A program made the translations under genes and the position numbers. From the NCBI GenBank assembly GCA_902606965.1, contig CACLIK010000006.1, forward strand, positions 1-45,625: DNA of 45,625 bases. Direction: 5' to 3'. The first letter of the stretch is position 1; every line of letters begins with the position of its first letter. The stretch is from an uncultured marine group I thaumarchaeote. GTDB lineage: Archaea > Thermoproteota > Nitrososphaeria > Nitrososphaerales > Nitrosopumilaceae. A model generated the notes under the pieces. That model was given only the letters and a program-made list of their open reading frames with translations, was not told the DNA's origin and ran no database searches. This document shows positions 5,912 through 17,291 of this stretch, one piece after another.

Positions 5912-6418
5912 TTGTGGGATATGGCTAGACCAGAACTAATTTTAAAGACAATCGAAAAAAACCCAGGTATTAGGTTCCGTGAGATCATGGATGAATTAGA
6001 GTTAAAGAACGGCACATTAAGCCATCATTTACAAAAATTGGAACGAGAATCAGTCTTACGAGCAGAAAGGACACCTCGAGTAGCAAGATTCTATCCTCTT
6101 TCTATAAATGAAGCAGAAATTCCAATTATCGCAAGGTTAAGGCAGGAAACACCACGTAGAATTCTACGCTTATTGTTGGATGTAGATGAGGTAAATTTCT
6201 CTGAAATGTTCTTGAGGATAAAAAGATCACCTGGTACAACATCACGTTATGTCACTGAATTAGTTAATGATGGTATTATCAAAGATAGGTTTGAGAATGG
6301 AAAGCGATTTTTTTCACTTCCAGACAAGAACACTGTTAATGAGTTAATTTCACAGTATCATCCAGATTTGATGGATAAAACAATTGAAAACTATGCAGAT
6401 GTTATTTCATCTCTTTAA
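5912..6418 (+). CDS. Transcriptional regulator with two winged-helix domains
   Basis: The 168-residue protein has two winged-helix units. The first, at about residues 4-65, is typical of archaeal MarR/ArsR-like regulators: ILKTIEKNPGIRFREIMDEL, a recognition helix around NGTLSHHLQKLERES, and a wing RAERTPRVARFYPL. The second, at about 85-150, contains RRILRLLLDVDEVNFSEMF and SPGTTSRYVTELVNDGIIKD. No obvious ligand domain or metal-binding cysteine cluster is present. It is 3 bp downstream of the membrane-protein gene and 73 bp upstream of the cupredoxin, so the membrane protein and cupredoxin are the simplest candidate targets. That regulatory link is inference. Confidence 0.85.
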   Translation: MWDMARPELILKTIEKNPGIRFREIMDELELKNGTLSHHLQKLERESVLRAERTPRVARFYPLSINEAEIPIIARLRQETPRRILRLLLDVDEVNFSEMFLRIKRSPGTTSRYVTELVNDGIIKDRFENGKRFFSLPDKNTVNELISQYHPDLMDKTIENYADVISSL

Positions 6419-6491
6419 TGTAAAAAGTAAGCATATTTTTGATCACTGTACCAATCAGGTTATATTACTCAATTTAAGGAATTAATCTAAA

Positions 6492-7385
6492 ATGCAGAAG
6501 AAAATGTATACATTATTTGGTTTACTCGCTATCTTTTCAATGATAGCTGTAGCACCACCTGCATTTGCAGATCATGCATCAGTCACAGTGACAAACGCAC
6601 CAGGATCATCAACTCCGGGATGTGAAGCAACTGATGATTGCTTTATTCCAAGTACAGTTACAATCGATGTAGGCAGTGAGGTCATTTGGGAAAATACTGA
6701 CAACGCAGCTCACACAGCAACATCTGGTACACCAGCTGATGGACCAGACGGAGTTTGGGACAGTAGCTTGATGATGGTTGGTGGAAGTTATTCTAAAATG
6801 TTTGATGAAGCAGGAACATATCCTTACTTTTGCATGGTTCACCCATGGATGGAAGGAACTGTAATTGTTGAAGCTGAGGATGACCATGGTGATGACCACG
6901 GTGAAGAAATGAGTCACAGTGACGACATGGGACATGATGAGAAGGCAGAGATGGGACATGGTGACGACATGGGACATGGTGATGATCATGGTGGAATAGA
7001 AGATCTATCTGACCAGTTTACAGCATCAGTTACGTCTGGTGTAATTCATCACATTGGCGCAAACTCTGACGACGATACATTACTTGTTCACTTATTCGAC
7101 ACTACTGATGACGGCGAACTTAAAATTACTCTAAACGAAGATATCATAACTCCATTTGATGACGGCACATACTTTGTACTTGTAGACAACGAAGAAGTTG
7201 ACTTTGAACAAATGGGAAACACTGTACATGTTGAATATTGGGCAGGCGCTGAGAGAATCGAAATAGTTGGAAGTCATGTAGTTCCAGAATTTGGAACAAT
7301 TGCTATGATTATACTTGCAGTAGCAATAGTAAGCATCATTGCAATAACTTCAAAGACAAGAATTTCTCTAACTCCTAAACTCTAA
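6492..7385 (+). CDS. Exported cupredoxin (plastocyanin-like) with His/Met/Asp-rich linker and PEFG-CTERM anchor
   Basis: Residues 1-27 are a signal peptide ending AFA. A plastocyanin-like domain follows with type 1 copper ligands H74, C114, H117 and M120 (AAHTA and YFCMVHPWM). Residues about 130-170 form a linker with many DDHG, MGHGDD and MSHS units that should bind Cu or other transition metals. A second beta domain occupies about 172-262. The C terminus, VVPEFGTIAMIILAVAIVSIIA followed by basic residues, is a PEFG-CTERM signal processed by thaumarchaeal archaeosortase-like enzymes. Copper proteins of this kind carry electrons outside the cell in ammonia-oxidising archaea, where c-type cytochromes are scarce. 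A TATA-like TTATATTA lies about 29 nt upstream. Its last four bases overlap the convergent flavoprotein gene. Confidence 0.92.
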   Translation: MQKKMYTLFGLLAIFSMIAVAPPAFADHASVTVTNAPGSSTPGCEATDDCFIPSTVTIDVGSEVIWENTDNAAHTATSGTPADGPDGVWDSSLMMVGGSYSKMFDEAGTYPYFCMVHPWMEGTVIVEAEDDHGDDHGEEMSHSDDMGHDEKAEMGHGDDMGHGDDHGGIEDLSDQFTASVTSGVIHHIGANSDDDTLLVHLFDTTDDGELKITLNEDIITPFDDGTYFVLVDNEEVDFEQMGNTVHVEYWAGAERIEIVGSHVVPEFGTIAMIILAVAIVSIIAITSKTRISLTPKL

Positions 7386-8722
7386 GTATTTTTCAAATAG
7401 GATATTATTTTTGGGTGACACAGAATTGAGCTGTGTGCAGCTGAATCAGTTCCAATTCCATAACTAACAGTGGAGTCACCAACAAAGAAGAGTCCTTTGA
7501 CTTGAGATACCTCGTGTGGCATTTTATTTTTCCAAACCAATCCTGGTTCTTTCACAACTGATTCCACTAAACTCCAAGCCTTTGGTCTGTCCCACAACAA
7601 TACTTGTTGAAACTTTGGATATATTGATGACAATTCTTCCTTCATCTTTGTAACAACTTCTGCAATTTTTTGTGAATTCTTTGCATCATCAGAAGATACT
7701 GGTGTACCGACTATCATAAGGTGCTCATCAGGTGGAGAAACAGATGGTGTAATGTTTGAAATGAAAAAGATCCCCTTGCATACATAGTCTTTTCCTACAG
7801 GAAACACAACTTGTCTTGAATCAATTTTTTCTGAGAGTGCAAAGTGTACTTCGATAACTGATGTAGTTTTGTTTAGTCTGTTTGTCGATTCTATAAATTT
7901 CTGATCAAATACTCCATTGTCAAAGAGCTGGTTTATTGCAAGATATGCTGGAAAAGTGACGACCACACAATTACTGGGAACAAATTCTCCATTTGTGAGG
8001 GTAATTCCTTCAACTTTGCCATTTTTCACCTCGATTTTTTTTATTGATGTATTCAAGTTCAACTCAGAACACTTACTGGTGATATATTCAGCAAACACTT
8101 TTGAGATTTTGTCATATCCACCCATGTCTGGATATGCAAACTCGCTTGTTCCACCCTTAAACGGATTAGCACGTATGATTGTGCGCGCAAATTCGCCCAA
8201 TGATATATGTTCTGGAACATCTGCAAACGCGAGAATACATACAGCATCAAAAAAATTTCTTGATTGTTCATCTAGTTTTTTTGTTATGTCCGTAAGTGGA
8301 ATTTCATCGAGTTCTTCTGTTTTTTCTATACTTGTAAATGCCATAGGTAACAAAACTCTAAGAAGTGAAAGTCTACTTCGGAATGGCAGCAGTGTCATCT
8401 GTAAAATGTCAACAATTCCCTTTGGATACTTGTGAAATCCATTTCCGTCATAAAACGCAATATCAGAAACACTTGCTAGTTTAAGTTTCGAAACTATGTT
8501 TAGTTTTTTAAGAATCTCATAAATTTTTGATTTTTTGTAGAATGGCATTATGTGAAATCCATTGTCTAAAATATGTCCATTATACAATGATGTGGCAGTT
8601 CTGCCACCCACTTCCGAAAATTTTTCAAAAACTTTACACGATATGTTTTCATTCACTAGTAAGGCAGCAGTTGATAGCCCACTTACACCAGCACCTATTA
8701 TCAGTACTTTAGAAGACAACAC
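7382..8722 (-). CDS. CrtI/amine-oxidase-type FAD-dependent oxidoreductase
   Basis: The N terminus has the FAD-binding Rossmann motif (KVLIIGAGVSGLSTAALL, then an acidic strand end and VGGRTAT), and the C terminus has the second FAD motif (VKGLFFVGDSTVSYGIGTDSAAHSS). The 446-residue length and motif order fit the phytoene desaturase/protoporphyrinogen oxidase/amine oxidase superfamily. The substrate cannot be read from sequence; carotenoid or another isoprenoid is plausible. The start is GTG at 8722, and its G is the last base of the upstream TAG stop (TAGTG), so it is translationally coupled to the B12-binding gene. It is the third gene of the operon that begins at 10545. Confidence 0.88.
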   Translation of the reverse strand: MLSSKVLIIGAGVSGLSTAALLVNENISCKVFEKFSEVGGRTATSLYNGHILDNGFHIMPFYKKSKIYEILKKLNIVSKLKLASVSDIAFYDGNGFHKYPKGIVDILQMTLLPFRSRLSLLRVLLPMAFTSIEKTEELDEIPLTDITKKLDEQSRNFFDAVCILAFADVPEHISLGEFARTIIRANPFKGGTSEFAYPDMGGYDKISKVFAEYITSKCSELNLNTSIKKIEVKNGKVEGITLTNGEFVPSNCVVVTFPAYLAINQLFDNGVFDQKFIESTNRLNKTTSVIEVHFALSEKIDSRQVVFPVGKDYVCKGIFFISNITPSVSPPDEHLMIVGTPVSSDDAKNSQKIAEVVTKMKEELSSIYPKFQQVLLWDRPKAWSLVESVVKEPGLVWKNKMPHEVSQVKGLFFVGDSTVSYGIGTDSAAHSSILCHPKIISYLKNT

Positions 8723-9576
8723 TAAGAATCCTTTTTCTTGATCATTCCTTGAATTGTTCTGGACAATTCAGATAGAGAAGATGTATCCATAACCGTAACA
8801 TCATGAAATGAGTTTCCATCTTGTAATGCTTGTCCACCAATTACAATGGGTATTTTGAATTTTTGTAGATTCTTGATCAGTATGTCACATGACCTGAGAT
8901 GATCTTTTAATGTGACCGAGATTAAAATCAAATCAGGTTTTTTCTCTGAAATGTGGCTAATTATTGACTTAGATGGAGCAGAAGGTGCCAAGTTGATCAC
9001 GTCATAACCATTTAACGAAAGATACGTTTCCATCATAAAACACGGGATTGCATGATATTCCCCATCAGGTGTACAGATGAGGATTGTTTTTCCTTTACTT
9101 TTCGCTTTTGGCTTAGTGCCTATCTTTTCAATTAGATGCATTGCGGTATTACTCGCAATATGTTCATCTCCGACGTCAAGTTTTTTTGCATCCCATAGTT
9201 CTCCTATCTGATACATTGCTGGTCGTAAGACATTATCATAAAAACTGGCTACAGATGTTTGCTTTGTAAAATCAGTGTAAATTGACATGGTATTTTTCAA
9301 ATCACCAGCCAGCAAGAATTTACGCATATTTTGCCTAGTTTTGGTTAGATATTTCTCACGTTTTTTAGTGTCTAATTGCCTGTTAGATGACAAAAACGAT
9401 AGGACAGATGGATCATTTCTATATTCATCTGGAATGTTTTCTAAAGTGACATCTGATGTTTTTCCTAAATACTTGATAGTTTGTTGCTCAGATGTTTTCT
9501 TTTTTGAATTCCACTTACTTTTTACAAGATAAGAATACGATTCATTCTTAACAATTTTAGAACGAAGGAATACCAT
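8722..9576 (-). CDS. B12-binding sensor-like protein with CarH-type W-x9-EH motif
   Basis: The 284-residue protein has three parts. Residues 1-75 form a basic beta-hairpin-like region (SYSYLVKSKW...QQTIKYLGKT) resembling the N terminus of some IS1634-type transposases. Residues about 80-150 form a four-helix cap with W128, nine residues, then E138-H139. Residues about 163-280 form a Rossmann-like B12-binding domain with DGEYH, H175 being the candidate lower axial ligand. In CarH photoreceptors the cap has W-x9-EH and the ligand histidine falls about 46 residues after the Trp; here it is 47. The MerR DNA-binding domain of CarH is absent. The gene lies 12 bp after the W-repeat gene (AAGGAAA-type ribosome site) and overlaps the flavoprotein start by one base. 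Alternative: an ordinary methyltransferase corrinoid protein, but the sensor motif argues against it. Confidence 0.85.
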   Translation of the reverse strand: MVFLRSKIVKNESYSYLVKSKWNSKKKTSEQQTIKYLGKTSDVTLENIPDEYRNDPSVLSFLSSNRQLDTKKREKYLTKTRQNMRKFLLAGDLKNTMSIYTDFTKQTSVASFYDNVLRPAMYQIGELWDAKKLDVGDEHIASNTAMHLIEKIGTKPKAKSKGKTILICTPDGEYHAIPCFMMETYLSLNGYDVINLAPSAPSKSIISHISEKKPDLILISVTLKDHLRSCDILIKNLQKFKIPIVIGGQALQDGNSFHDVTVMDTSSLSELSRTIQGMIKKKDS

Positions 9577-9588
9577 TTTCCTTCTTGT

Positions 9589-10545
9589 CTACTTCACCGT
9601 TAACTCTAATGGTAGATTCAAGTTTCCAAATGGTTCAGTGATTTTTAGAAAATACTCACTGGATGCATCATAGTTCCATCTTTCCAAGTGTTTTTGTGCA
9701 GGAGGTCCAAATGAGAAATCAATTGAAGCAATGACGTCAGGCTTCATTTCTAATCTGCCAGCGGTAACAGTATTAGTAGAATATGGCCAGTCCTTTTTTC
9801 CATCAGTGATTGTGTAATTACATGCAACTGCACCAGTACAGAATATTGAGTGATTTTTGCTATCAGTATTGTGTACTACAAATGTTATGAACAAATTTGA
9901 ATTTCCATCAGGTGTAATTATTACTTGAGATGGAGTATAGTAATAATGCACGGGTCCAACCACATACTTTTTAGAACCCATCATGTATTCAACGCTCTCT
10001 AGCAGATCCTTGAACTCATTTTCACACAAGAAAACTTCTGAAGCCTTGTCATATTCCTGGCACTTTGCAAGCTCTGCTTTCACTTGATTATATTTTGCAG
10101 TTAACGTAGAATCAGAACTTGATGGTGCAGCTGTTGGTGCTGCCATTGCAGGTGCTGCCTGCTCAGCTTGTGGAACTGTCATTATTCCAACTTTAATGAG
10201 ATGTTGAATAGCATTTACAAAGTCATCATCAGAAATTTGATTTCCTGCCCACCAGCTGGCGGTATTTTTAACCCAACCAGGTATTGTTGATTCTGCAGTT
10301 CCAGAAACTGCAGTGGTTGGAACTTCTATAATGTCATTTGAAACAAGCCATTCAATGCCTGAAACAAACGAACCATCGTCAATAATTCCATCAGCCCACC
10401 ATCCTGCGTTATTTTTTATCCAGTCCGGAACACAAACTCTGCAATCAGGTGGTGCATAGTTGCTTGATGTTGATACTTGTGCAGAAGCAATTGGTATCAC
10501 AGCAACTGCTGCTAGTAAAGCAAGTAATGGAATTACTTTATTCAT
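9589..10545 (-). CDS. Secreted W-repeat protein, first gene of the B12-sensor operon
   Basis: I take the start at ATG 10545 rather than the ORF-track 10566, because the TATA box at 10567-10577 is centred 27 nt upstream and would lie outside the message. This gives MNKVIPLLALLAAVAVIPIASA, a clean signal peptide. Two W-repeats follow (VPDWIKNNAGWWADG and IPGWVKNTASWWAGN), then an Ala/Pro/Ser-rich linker and a C-terminal beta domain of about 150 residues with several cysteines (AKCQEYD, FLCENE, IFCTGAVACNY) that could form disulfides outside the cell. The C-terminal domain is not one I can name. Twelve bases separate its stop from the B12-binding gene, so they are probably one message. Confidence 0.82.
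   Translation of the reverse strand: MNKVIPLLALLAAVAVIPIASAQVSTSSNYAPPDCRVCVPDWIKNNAGWWADGIIDDGSFVSGIEWLVSNDIIEVPTTAVSGTAESTIPGWVKNTASWWAGNQISDDDFVNAIQHLIKVGIMTVPQAEQAAPAMAAPTAAPSSSDSTLTAKYNQVKAELAKCQEYDKASEVFLCENEFKDLLESVEYMMGSKKYVVGPVHYYYTPSQVIITPDGNSNLFITFVVHNTDSKNHSIFCTGAVACNYTITDGKKDWPYSTNTVTAGRLEMKPDVIASIDFSFGPPAQKHLERWNYDASSEYFLKITEPFGNLNLPLELTVK
10180..10450 (-). repeat. Two divergent W-repeats of the secreted protein
   Basis: The first copy (about 10335-10450) reads VPDWIKNNAGWWADGIIDDGSF. The second (about 10180-10295) reads IPGWVKNTASWWAGNQISDDDF. The second copy is the most divergent of the six W-repeats in the window. Confidence 0.8.
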
Positions 10546-10566: not shown

Positions 10567-10577
10567 TATAATATAAA
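10567..10577 (-). promoter_or_regulatory. TATA box of the W-repeat/B12/flavoprotein operon
   Basis: On the minus strand this reads TTTATATTATA, a strong archaeal TATA box. It is centred 27 nt before the ATG at 10545, consistent with leaderless transcription of the first gene. Confidence 0.7.
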
Positions 10578-10580
10578 CTG

Positions 10581-10610
10581 GTGCTAACTTTACTTACTAG
10601 TGCTAACTAG
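10581..10610. promoter_or_regulatory. Candidate operator: two GTGCTAACT direct repeats and an inverted repeat
   Basis: GTGCTAACT occurs at 10581-10589 and 10600-10608, 19 bp apart. The second copy sits in a short inverted repeat, CTAGT-GCTA-ACTAG, at 10597-10610. Relative to the minus-strand operon this is immediately upstream of the TATA box, in the BRE and upstream-activator zone. The binding protein is unknown. Confidence 0.5.
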
Positions 10611-10618
10611 CAAATAGA

Positions 10619-11455
10619 TCAGACAAAAATTATCGATGCATAACCAACAACTGAGCTTTTGTCACCTGAAATGTCACCACTGGTGGCATATTTCAGCAGT
10701 TTTCCCTCAGTAGCACCAAGTTCCTTACAGGCAATCATGGTAGACGCTATCGCACCATATCCACATGCAGTCACATGCTTTTCATACAAAACTTTGTAAA
10801 ATTCATCAACGTCCAGCTTCAGAATCGGTTCAATCAGTGCCATGTCTTGTTTATGTGCAAATTCATTTTCTTCGTAATGCGTAAAATCAGATGAACCAAT
10901 CAACAAGACATCCTTTTTTTTGGCGAGTTCTGCAATTGCGGAGCCCACTTGTGTTGCTGTTTTTTGTTCTTGAGTAATTAGAGAGACAGGAAGTATCTTC
11001 ATTTCATTAGGAAATGTTTCTTGGAGTATAGGGATCTGCACTTCAATACTGTGCTCTTTTGAGTGAGAGAAAGAGTCAAGTTCCAATATACCTAGATACT
11101 CTCTTAGTTCCAATGCAGATTCCGAATCAACTTTAACCAAACCAAGTGGAGTCTTCCAACTAGAATCAACCATGGACGCAACATTTTGTCCAATTCCGTA
11201 GTGATTAGGGCCAGTAATTATTGCTAGTTTGCTTTTAGACAATGAGATTGCATAGAATGAGTGGCAGGCAACAGGACCAGAATAGACGAATCCTGCATGT
11301 GGGCATATCACACCGTAAATCTTTTGTTCAGAATCTGTCGGTGGTATTTTACCAGGACCAAATTCATGCAAAAAGCATTCATGTATGAGATCTTTTAGTC
11401 CCTTTTCATCTCCAGGATAAAACGTTCCAGATACCGCCGGCGTCCTAACTTCCAT
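10619..11455 (-). CDS. Memo-family protein (AmmeMemoRadiSam component)
   Basis: The protein starts MEVRTPAVSGTFYPGDEKGL, the usual Memo N terminus, so I take the ATG at 11455 instead of the ORF-track 11494. It has the family landmarks CPHAGFVYSGPVACH, GPNHYG, HSIEVQIP, IGSSDFTHYE and ACGYGAI. These include the His/His/Cys set that binds a metal in Memo proteins related to extradiol dioxygenases. At 279 residues it has typical length. The start overlaps the end of the AMMECR1 gene by 11 bp, so the two are translationally coupled. The biochemical role of the Memo-AMMECR1-radical SAM trio is not settled. Confidence 0.92.
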   Translation of the reverse strand: MEVRTPAVSGTFYPGDEKGLKDLIHECFLHEFGPGKIPPTDSEQKIYGVICPHAGFVYSGPVACHSFYAISLSKSKLAIITGPNHYGIGQNVASMVDSSWKTPLGLVKVDSESALELREYLGILELDSFSHSKEHSIEVQIPILQETFPNEMKILPVSLITQEQKTATQVGSAIAELAKKKDVLLIGSSDFTHYEENEFAHKQDMALIEPILKLDVDEFYKVLYEKHVTACGYGAIASTMIACKELGATEGKLLKYATSGDISGDKSSVVGYASIIFV

Positions 11456-12035
11456 TGGTTTCCTCCTTGTATACAATCCCCTCAAACTTTTCAATTTTCA
11501 CTTTTTCATTTTTCCAAGTATTCTTTTCCAACCCAGCCTTTTCACATGTATGCTGGAGAAATTCTTCCACATTCCAACCATATTCGACAGGAACTTGCGG
11601 CAATAGCAGACCTGATGAAAAAGAGTTTCTTATGATCAGACCATCCCTTCCAACTTTGATCTTCTCCAAGTATTCCATAGGATCAGTTACAGTGATCTCA
11701 ACTGGTGGTGTGAGAACGGTTACTTCAAACACAATGCCATTCAGCTCATTTGTTTTTACTGGTGAGAATCTTGGGTCCTCTGTGGCTGCAGCAATTGCTG
11801 CATCTATTATTCCATGAGATAGTTTTTTGTCAGGCATCGGAAATCCGATGCAGCCTCGTAATCCATCAGCGTTGTTTAAGGTAACAAACACGCCTGCATT
11901 AAAAGAGAATTTTTTCTCACGTTCTGATTCTAATTTCATTCTCTTACCATTTGAAAGAAATTCAGTAACAGCCATTCGTGCAGTCTTGACCAAGAAAACC
12001 CCATCTGAATCAGATAATTGGGTATCTTCAGGCAT
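11445..12035 (-). CDS. AMMECR1-domain protein
   Basis: The 196-residue product contains the hallmark motif LRGCIG (in NNADGLRGCIGFPMP), and further AMMECR1 features such as AAIAAATEDPRFSPV and PVEYGWNVEEFLQHTCEKAGL. It spans the full single-domain length of archaeal homologues. A TATA-like TTTAATACA is centred about 23 nt before the ATG at 12035. It is the first gene of a two-gene unit with Memo and overlaps it by 11 bp. The domain's function is unknown; co-occurrence with a radical SAM enzyme suggests a modification pathway. Confidence 0.93.
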   Translation of the reverse strand: MPEDTQLSDSDGVFLVKTARMAVTEFLSNGKRMKLESEREKKFSFNAGVFVTLNNADGLRGCIGFPMPDKKLSHGIIDAAIAAATEDPRFSPVKTNELNGIVFEVTVLTPPVEITVTDPMEYLEKIKVGRDGLIIRNSFSSGLLLPQVPVEYGWNVEEFLQHTCEKAGLEKNTWKNEKVKIEKFEGIVYKEETNGS

Positions 12036-16291: not shown

Positions 16292-16379
16292 AACAAATAT
16301 CGACTTTGTCCTCATTAAAAAGTTAACAACAGAATTTGATAATCAACTGTTATATGAGAATAAAATCAAACTATTCAAA

Positions 16380-17291
16380 GTGAAATCCAATCTCTCAACT
16401 TCAATTGGGACTCTGACTCTTGAGAGGCCTACTATTCTTGCATCTGGCATATTGGGCATATCACTTAATGTTTTTGAGCGGTTACATCGTGCTGGAGCTG
16501 GAGCCGTTGTTACAAAGTCATTAAGTAAGGAACCATGGGATGGCTATGCGAATCCAACAATCTTTAGTGTAAAAGGTGGAGGTTGGTTGAATGCAGTTGG
16601 ATTATCAAACCCCGGAGCACCAAATTTTGCAAAAACGATTTCTTCAAACAAAGACGTTCCAATAATAGTTAGTCTAGTTGGATCAGTGGAAGACGATTTT
16701 GATTTTATGGTAAAACAATTTGAAAACTGTAAGGTTTCAGCCTACGAATTGAATCTATCATGTCCACATGTGGCTAAGGTTGGTCTAGAGGTTGGCGACG
16801 ATGTTGATCTTGTGGAAAAAATTATAAAAAAAGTAAAATCACTTACTGACGTACCTGTTATAGCCAAAGTAGGTTTAGGCACTACAAACTATCTGGATAC
16901 TGTAAGTGCAGCATGTGAAGCAGGAGCTGATGGTATTACTGCTATTAACACCATACGTGCAATGGCAATCAATGTTGAAACTAGAAAGCCAGTACTAAGC
17001 AACAAAATCGGTGGTTTGTCTGGAACTCCAATAAAACCAATTGCTGTTAGATGTGTTTATGAGATTTCATCCAAGTTTGATGTTCCAATAATTGGATGTG
17101 GTGGTATTTCAACATGGGAAGATGCTGTAGAATTTATACTTGCAGGTGCGTGCGCTGTACAGTTTGGTAGTGTATTGGGTGAGCATTGGACAGAAGTTTT
17201 TGCTGATATAAATAGCGGAATTCAAAATTATATGGAACAAAATGGATATTCAAGTATAGGTGAGATGGTTGGACAAGCAAAGGAATCCTAA
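16380..17291 (+). CDS. pyrD: Dihydroorotate dehydrogenase, class 1B catalytic subunit
   Basis: The 303-residue FMN enzyme shows VTKSLSKEPWDGYANPTIF, LNLSCPHV with the catalytic cysteine typical of class 1 enzymes, VPVIAKVGLG, GLSGTPIKPIAVRCVYEI and the FMN phosphate region GCGGISTWEDAVEFILAGA. It oxidises dihydroorotate to orotate in pyrimidine synthesis. The class 1B form needs the PyrK electron-transfer partner, whose gene follows after 10 bp. The start is GTG at 16380, with a TATA-like TTATATGAG about 27 nt upstream. Confidence 0.96.
   Translation: MKSNLSTSIGTLTLERPTILASGILGISLNVFERLHRAGAGAVVTKSLSKEPWDGYANPTIFSVKGGGWLNAVGLSNPGAPNFAKTISSNKDVPIIVSLVGSVEDDFDFMVKQFENCKVSAYELNLSCPHVAKVGLEVGDDVDLVEKIIKKVKSLTDVPVIAKVGLGTTNYLDTVSAACEAGADGITAINTIRAMAINVETRKPVLSNKIGGLSGTPIKPIAVRCVYEISSKFDVPIIGCGGISTWEDAVEFILAGACAVQFGSVLGEHWTEVFADINSGIQNYMEQNGYSSIGEMVGQAKES

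Follow-up and report, generated by a model that had tools for sequence, protein, structure and literature searches.

Two head-to-tail repeats beside the TATA box of an operon in the window (the whole 45,625-nucleotide stretch analysed here, from an uncultured marine group I thaumarchaeote) belong to a promoter element whose family-wide occurrence in the Nitrosopumilaceae is firmly supported. On balance we favour the reading that the element is an operator bound by the CarH-like B12 photoreceptor of the same operon, and that photoprotection genes under its control would be repressed in the dark and relieved of that repression by light. What the analysis itself shows is the conservation of the element, its geometry and target genes, its autoregulatory placement, its linkage to and co-occurrence with the gene for the B12-binding protein, and the light-type cobalamin domain of that protein.

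Ammonia oxidation by marine archaea is inhibited by light. In the open-access literature we found no description of how ammonia-oxidizing marine archaea sense light, and no paper that deals with the motif, a thaumarchaeal B12 photoreceptor or the regulon, which does not prove that none exists. By analogy with CarH, these archaea may sense light with B12. The element offers a regulon that can be read from genomes and a concrete candidate sensor–operator pair to test, in which the sensor joins a known photoreceptor domain to a family-restricted candidate DNA-binding domain. Were the favoured reading true, it would provide an archaeal B12 regulator that responds to light, along with the operator it recognises.

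The tandem element at the operon promoter

The 9-mer GTGCTAACT occurs at 10581-10589 and at 10600-10608 (19 bp start to start), and, with one mismatch allowed, the repeat is 13 bp long (ACT[G/A]GTGCTAACT). On the minus strand, in which the operon is read, the order is TTAGCACTAG-TAAGTAAAG-TTAGCACCAG-T-TTATAT, where TAAGTAAAG is the N9 spacer. The outer (distal) half-site TTAGCACTAG lies at 10597-10606 and the inner (proximal) half-site TTAGCACCAG at 10578-10587, the latter at the BRE position and 1 nt from TTATAT; both agree with the consensus of 141 sites described below and fall in a profile match at 10571-10606. The TATA box TTTATATT occupies 10570-10577 (minus strand) and its TTAWAT core has a constant position in homologs. 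The element fills the gap between the stop codon of the upstream Memo-family gene (10619-11458, minus strand, assigned by family match) and the first gene of the operon (9589-10545, minus strand). This gene encodes a secreted W-repeat protein, for which Pfam gave no family, and is near-leaderless, with its ATG at 10545, 25 nt from TTATAT. The gene for the B12-binding protein, the candidate regulator, follows (8722-9576, minus strand; an N-terminal three-stranded β domain and a CarH-like cobalamin-binding domain), and the last gene (7382-8722, minus strand) encodes an FAD-dependent oxidoreductase (Amino_oxidase/CrtI-like by family match).

The two exact copies beside the BRE/TATA region are thus present as the sequence-only reading described them. 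Judged from the window alone they are unremarkable, as it holds 31 pairs of identical 9-mers no more than 40 bp apart (13 expected, largest simulated number 22); it is conservation across homologs that makes them significant. A dispersed genome-wide repeat is rejected: the 13-mer with up to two mismatches is not enriched in the window's own genome (45 matches against 47 in the reversed control), where the exact bipartite pattern occurs once. This genome is 733 kb in length and 63% complete, and its congeners in the collection are Candidatus Nitrosopelagicus or marine group I. The same reading had also pointed to the inverted repeat CTAGT-GCTA-ACTAG (10597-10610, no strand) and to a dimeric regulator with copies near two helical turns apart. 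We reject the inverted repeat as an operator and judge it a chance match, since TAG precedes the outer copy in 7 of 141 sites and the window has an ordinary number of 5-4-5 inverted repeats (77, with 68 expected). The element is a direct repeat rather than a palindromic site for a symmetric dimer, and its actual spacing of 18–19 bp amounts to about 1.75 turns.

Gene order around the operon is identical in the closest relative, L003 (AMMECR1-Memo-W-B12-FAD). There the stretch from AGTTAGCAC to TTATAT (38 bp) has two differences from the window, and the 25 nt from TTATAT to the ATG are about half identical. The two half-sites abutting the TATA box are kept in about 18 more homologs of the genus (roughly 35–44% protein identity), whose neighbouring genes are mostly different from those in the window. 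Conservation of the promoter extends over about 20 homologs inside the genus and about 35 outside it; Nitrosopumilus, Nitrosarchaeum and further members of the family have the element too, in many cases with one or two extra copies upstream. A third or fourth half-site is common upstream of the W-repeat gene (for example in L069, L073 and L066), and some of these face a divergent gene. Two W-repeat promoters of the same genus (L018 and L019, from genomes G013 and G010) are without the element, although both genomes have the B12 gene. Alignment of the promoter across relatives had been set beforehand as the comparison that could refute a regulatory role; the repeats are kept at the promoters of homologous operons, and the claim that they form a regulatory element at the BRE/TATA region is borne out.

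Over all fetched loci, 141 distinct sites were collected, with the consensus TTRSCACTAG occurring twice. The search pattern fixed part of the core, so per-position information content is biased; a score threshold put only weak limits on the first four half-site positions, the half-sites could lie 17–21 bp apart and the distance to the ATG was free. Half-sites lie 19 bp apart, start to start, in 93 sites and 18 bp apart in 46. The inner copy is separated from the TTAWAT core by 0–2 nt overall and by 0–1 nt in 135 of the 141, and the first ATG follows TTAWAT after 22–24 nt in 107. Because this start-codon distance is short and constant, the promoters are leaderless or near-leaderless and hence real promoters. 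Across the 141 sites the conservation of the outer copy equals or exceeds that of the inner one, a comparison partly biased by the search pattern. A pattern that includes the TATA box finds 25 sites in 31 congeneric genomes (none with the reversed pattern) and 59 in 61 genomes of the family (3 in the reversed control). The idea that the repeats arose by chance in an AT-rich promoter can safely be dismissed: comparable repeats are not rare in the window alone, but family-wide conservation, fixed geometry, the excess over reversed-pattern controls and successful prediction in further genomes refute it.

Co-occurrence with the B12 gene and the regulon

Sites and the full-length B12 protein go together in the 61 genomes: 29 have both, 28 have neither, one has sites only and three have the gene only (agreement 57/61; Fisher p = 7e-13, within-genus permutation p = 5e-5). 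A sequence profile (R1), built from 22 trimmed sites, picks out a single site in the window, and in the window's own genome a single significant one. It also finds sites near the B12 gene in two of the three gene-only genomes (G031 and G068, E = 0.003 and 1e-5), and its best E-value in genomes lacking the gene is 0.075. Among genomes outside profile building, all eight with the B12 gene have a site at E ≤ 7e-6; those lacking it (three of three congeneric genomes of genus g11 and three of three from other families) score at E ≥ 0.037, which is chance level. Two genomes depart from the pattern. G067 has the B12 gene and no element found by the profile: its version of the system may have diverged or be free of sites, or the assembly may have a gap. 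G062 has sites and no B12 gene was found in it. Nearly all genomes that lack the B12 gene lack the epimerase as well. As the module is inherited en bloc, co-occurrence ties the element to the module and not to the B12 protein alone.

The element marks a regulon made up of the W-repeat gene, the B12-binding gene, an epimerase and the FAD oxidoreductase, joined in some species by a DNA photolyase. Element-bearing genomes have from one to about ten sites, and of the 65 sites that reach E < 1e-3, 54 are no more than 20 kb away from the B12 gene; the low number of sites per genome, and the chance-level scores in genomes without the B12 gene, lead us to reject a general promoter element of these archaea. 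The promoter of the B12 gene itself carries the tandem element in most species, commonly as TTAGCACTAG-N9-TTAGCATTAG-TTATATA. Of the 61 genomes, 12 have a photolyase of the 8-HDF type, and 11 of these have sites; its gene is in a site-driven operon in L168 and directly 3' of the B12 gene in L177. Photolyases have been noted in Thaumarchaeota of sunlit waters, without this element or regulator (PMC9239080).

Genes directly after sites include those for the W-repeat protein, the epimerase and several small proteins without a family. Also directly after sites is the gene for a 61-residue protein (MAEEQEWANLLAEVFDKL..., family unmatched; L168:14072-14257 and L171:5961-6146), which heads an operon with the photolyase in L168 and with the epimerase in L171. 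A conserved Cys-rich protein of 60–78 residues (MGASCKGIC/MGRTCRGIC...) recurs in the clusters (L172:10035-10271, L177:6714-6905, L168:17228-17422) and sometimes stands right after a site, as in L172, where the FAD oxidoreductase comes next; the one copy scanned has no family match. Genes of the TFB type also lie in or beside element-bearing clusters, two in L168 called by Pfam (6196-7095 and 16329-17228) and two called by N-terminal resemblance (L173:14363-15328 and L181:216-1148). One TFB gene of L168 sits in a site-driven operon behind a 65-residue gene, and a TFB cascade is possible.

The B12-binding protein as candidate regulator

From about residue 80 onward the protein is a cobalamin-binding domain, with the motifs W128-x9-E138-H139 and E173-x-H175-x2-P-x41-S-x-T-x24-GG in the window. 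The first, the CarH-defining Wx9EH, is found in 35 of 35 full-length homologs. The second matches the spacing of the classic B12-binding motif, D/ExHx2G/P-x41-SxT/V-x22-27-GG (PMC9304148), exactly (E173-Y-H175-A-I-P178, S220-x-T222, G247-G248). A published signature of light-responsive domains consists of GxxW, EH, GxxH and GxxxP (SignatureFinder, PMC11796333). Three of these four elements (GxxW-x9-EH and GxxH) are in all 35 full-length homologs; the fourth, GxxxP, is in most Nitrosopumilus-type proteins and reads AxxxP in the window protein. Among solved structures, photocobilins, a light-responsive MerR protein and CarH come nearest in sequence and fold. CarH is also the best-scoring NCBIfam model, at 56 bits, far under its cut-off of 400 because the N-terminus is unmatched.

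The N-terminal domain (residues 1–65; 9382-9576, minus strand) is predicted to be a three-stranded antiparallel sheet with a helix (mean pLDDT 89). It is basic (rich in Lys and Arg) and the most conserved part of the protein, with 18 invariant positions of 65, and it occurs in 27 of 250 genomes of the phylum, all of them Nitrosopumilaceae. One genome, G256, has two genes with this domain (C1:749887 and C1:796079). Searches of Pfam, NCBIfam and PDB by sequence, and of PDB and viral structures by fold, returned no relative, and a MerR winged helix/HTH sought in the domain gave no match; a MerR or other known DNA-binding family is therefore rejected for the N-terminus. Its likeness to AP2/Arm-type or transposase N-terminal domains is an impression of topology which the searches do not support. 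Since the MerR domain is absent, the B12 protein is not classifiable as CarH; it may well work like CarH.

Proposed mechanism and comparison with known systems

In CarH systems an AdoCbl-loaded oligomer sits in the dark on direct repeats overlapping the promoter, from which light releases it (PMC8156234). For the archaeal element we propose likewise that repression in the dark is lifted by light, because the CarH-type domain, the repeats on the BRE, the autoregulatory placement and the photolyase target all match CarH. The repeats would be the two half-sites (TTRSCACTAG twice, 18–19 bp) of a Nitrosopumilaceae operator with its inner copy on the BRE, and the B12-binding protein would be the DNA binder, its N-terminal β-sheet domain acting as the reader in place of MerR. 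In the dark, the AdoCbl-loaded oligomer would occupy the direct repeats and block TFB/TBP. Light would break the Co–C bond and the oligomer would fall apart, allowing transcription of the photoprotection genes, of the gene for the sensor itself and of any photolyase gene present. The earlier suggestion that the regulator is a product of the operon itself holds in so far as the B12-binding protein is the best candidate; we infer its identity as regulator and its binding to the repeats from co-occurrence, autoregulatory placement and homology. Repression as the sign of regulation is suggested by the analogy with CarH, and light is the probable signal. The more specific claim, that ammonia-oxidizing archaea have a B12 photoreceptor whose DNA-binding domain is of a type not described before and that it keeps a photoprotection regulon repressed in the dark by way of a tandem BRE/TATA operator, is tentative, a serious possibility that we stop short of asserting.

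Another small protein of the clusters, such as the Cys-rich one or a factor yet to be recognised, could bind the repeats and be modulated by the B12 protein, as CrtJ is by AerR. Several conserved cluster proteins match no family, AerR-type B12 co-regulators exist (PMC9144470), and AerR (7te2) is a weaker sequence match to the B12 protein. We nevertheless think this arrangement unlikely: it is the B12 gene that is in the window's operon, where the small genes are not seen next to it, and a DNA-binding domain with a single, conserved target would be expected to look like the N-terminus of the B12 protein, basic and more invariant than the rest.

The favoured operator reading could also be wrong in its sign. 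A regulator, perhaps the same B12 protein, might bind upstream of the TATA box as an activator and recruit TFB/TBP in light or oxidative stress. The two copies stand in fixed phase to the TATA box, and archaeal activators are able to bind immediately upstream of a BRE. Here the inner copy is on the BRE itself, at 0–1 nt from TTAWAT in nearly all sites, which favours competition with TFB, and CarH proteins are repressors; activation therefore seems improbable.

We are slightly more doubtful still that a dedicated TFB paralog reads the element, with the inner copy as a specialised BRE and the TFB of the cluster setting the regulon. The inner half-site does abut the TATA box at the BRE position, and Nitrosopumilus-type genomes have the TFB genes noted above, one of them site-driven. 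Against this, the window's operon shows no TFB gene, and an outer copy of the same sequence lies 18–19 bp upstream, conserved at least as well as the inner one. Contact of TFB with DNA that far upstream of a half-site at the BRE position is not expected; the TFB/BRE class of promoters calls for a single recognition element by the TATA box, and two like half-sites are present.

The candidate B12 photoreceptor–operator pair most resembles the bacterial photoreceptor-repressors CarH/LitR. Shared with these are a cobalamin-binding domain with both CarH-defining motifs, direct repeats at core promoter elements (here a candidate operator, with half-sites abutting the TATA box at 141 sites), linkage to a photolyase and a CrtI-like FAD oxidoreductase, and placement of the regulator's own gene under the element. 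The archaeal protein differs in lacking the MerR DNA-binding domain and in matching the NCBIfam CarH model only in part. Its presumed half-sites are 10 bp long at 18–19 bp spacing, whereas in CarH operators 11-bp direct repeats stand in tandem and overlap the promoter (PMC8156234, PMC9304148), and the promoter is an archaeal one (BRE/TATA). Photocobilins (8j2w, 8j2x, 8j2y) are the closest solved relatives of the cobalamin domain in sequence and fold, but theirs is joined to a bilin-binding domain (PMC10979010); the archaeal protein has the N-terminal β domain and no bilin domain was recognised in it. With AerR/CrtJ of purple bacteria the system shares a B12-binding protein that accompanies light-related genes, which it would here control; AerR acts through CrtJ, whereas no CrtJ-like protein was recognised here. 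Finally, as in archaeal BRE/TATA promoters of organisms with multiple TFBs, the inner half-site is positioned where the BRE is read, and the element differs from these promoters in the second, like half-site 18–19 bp further upstream.
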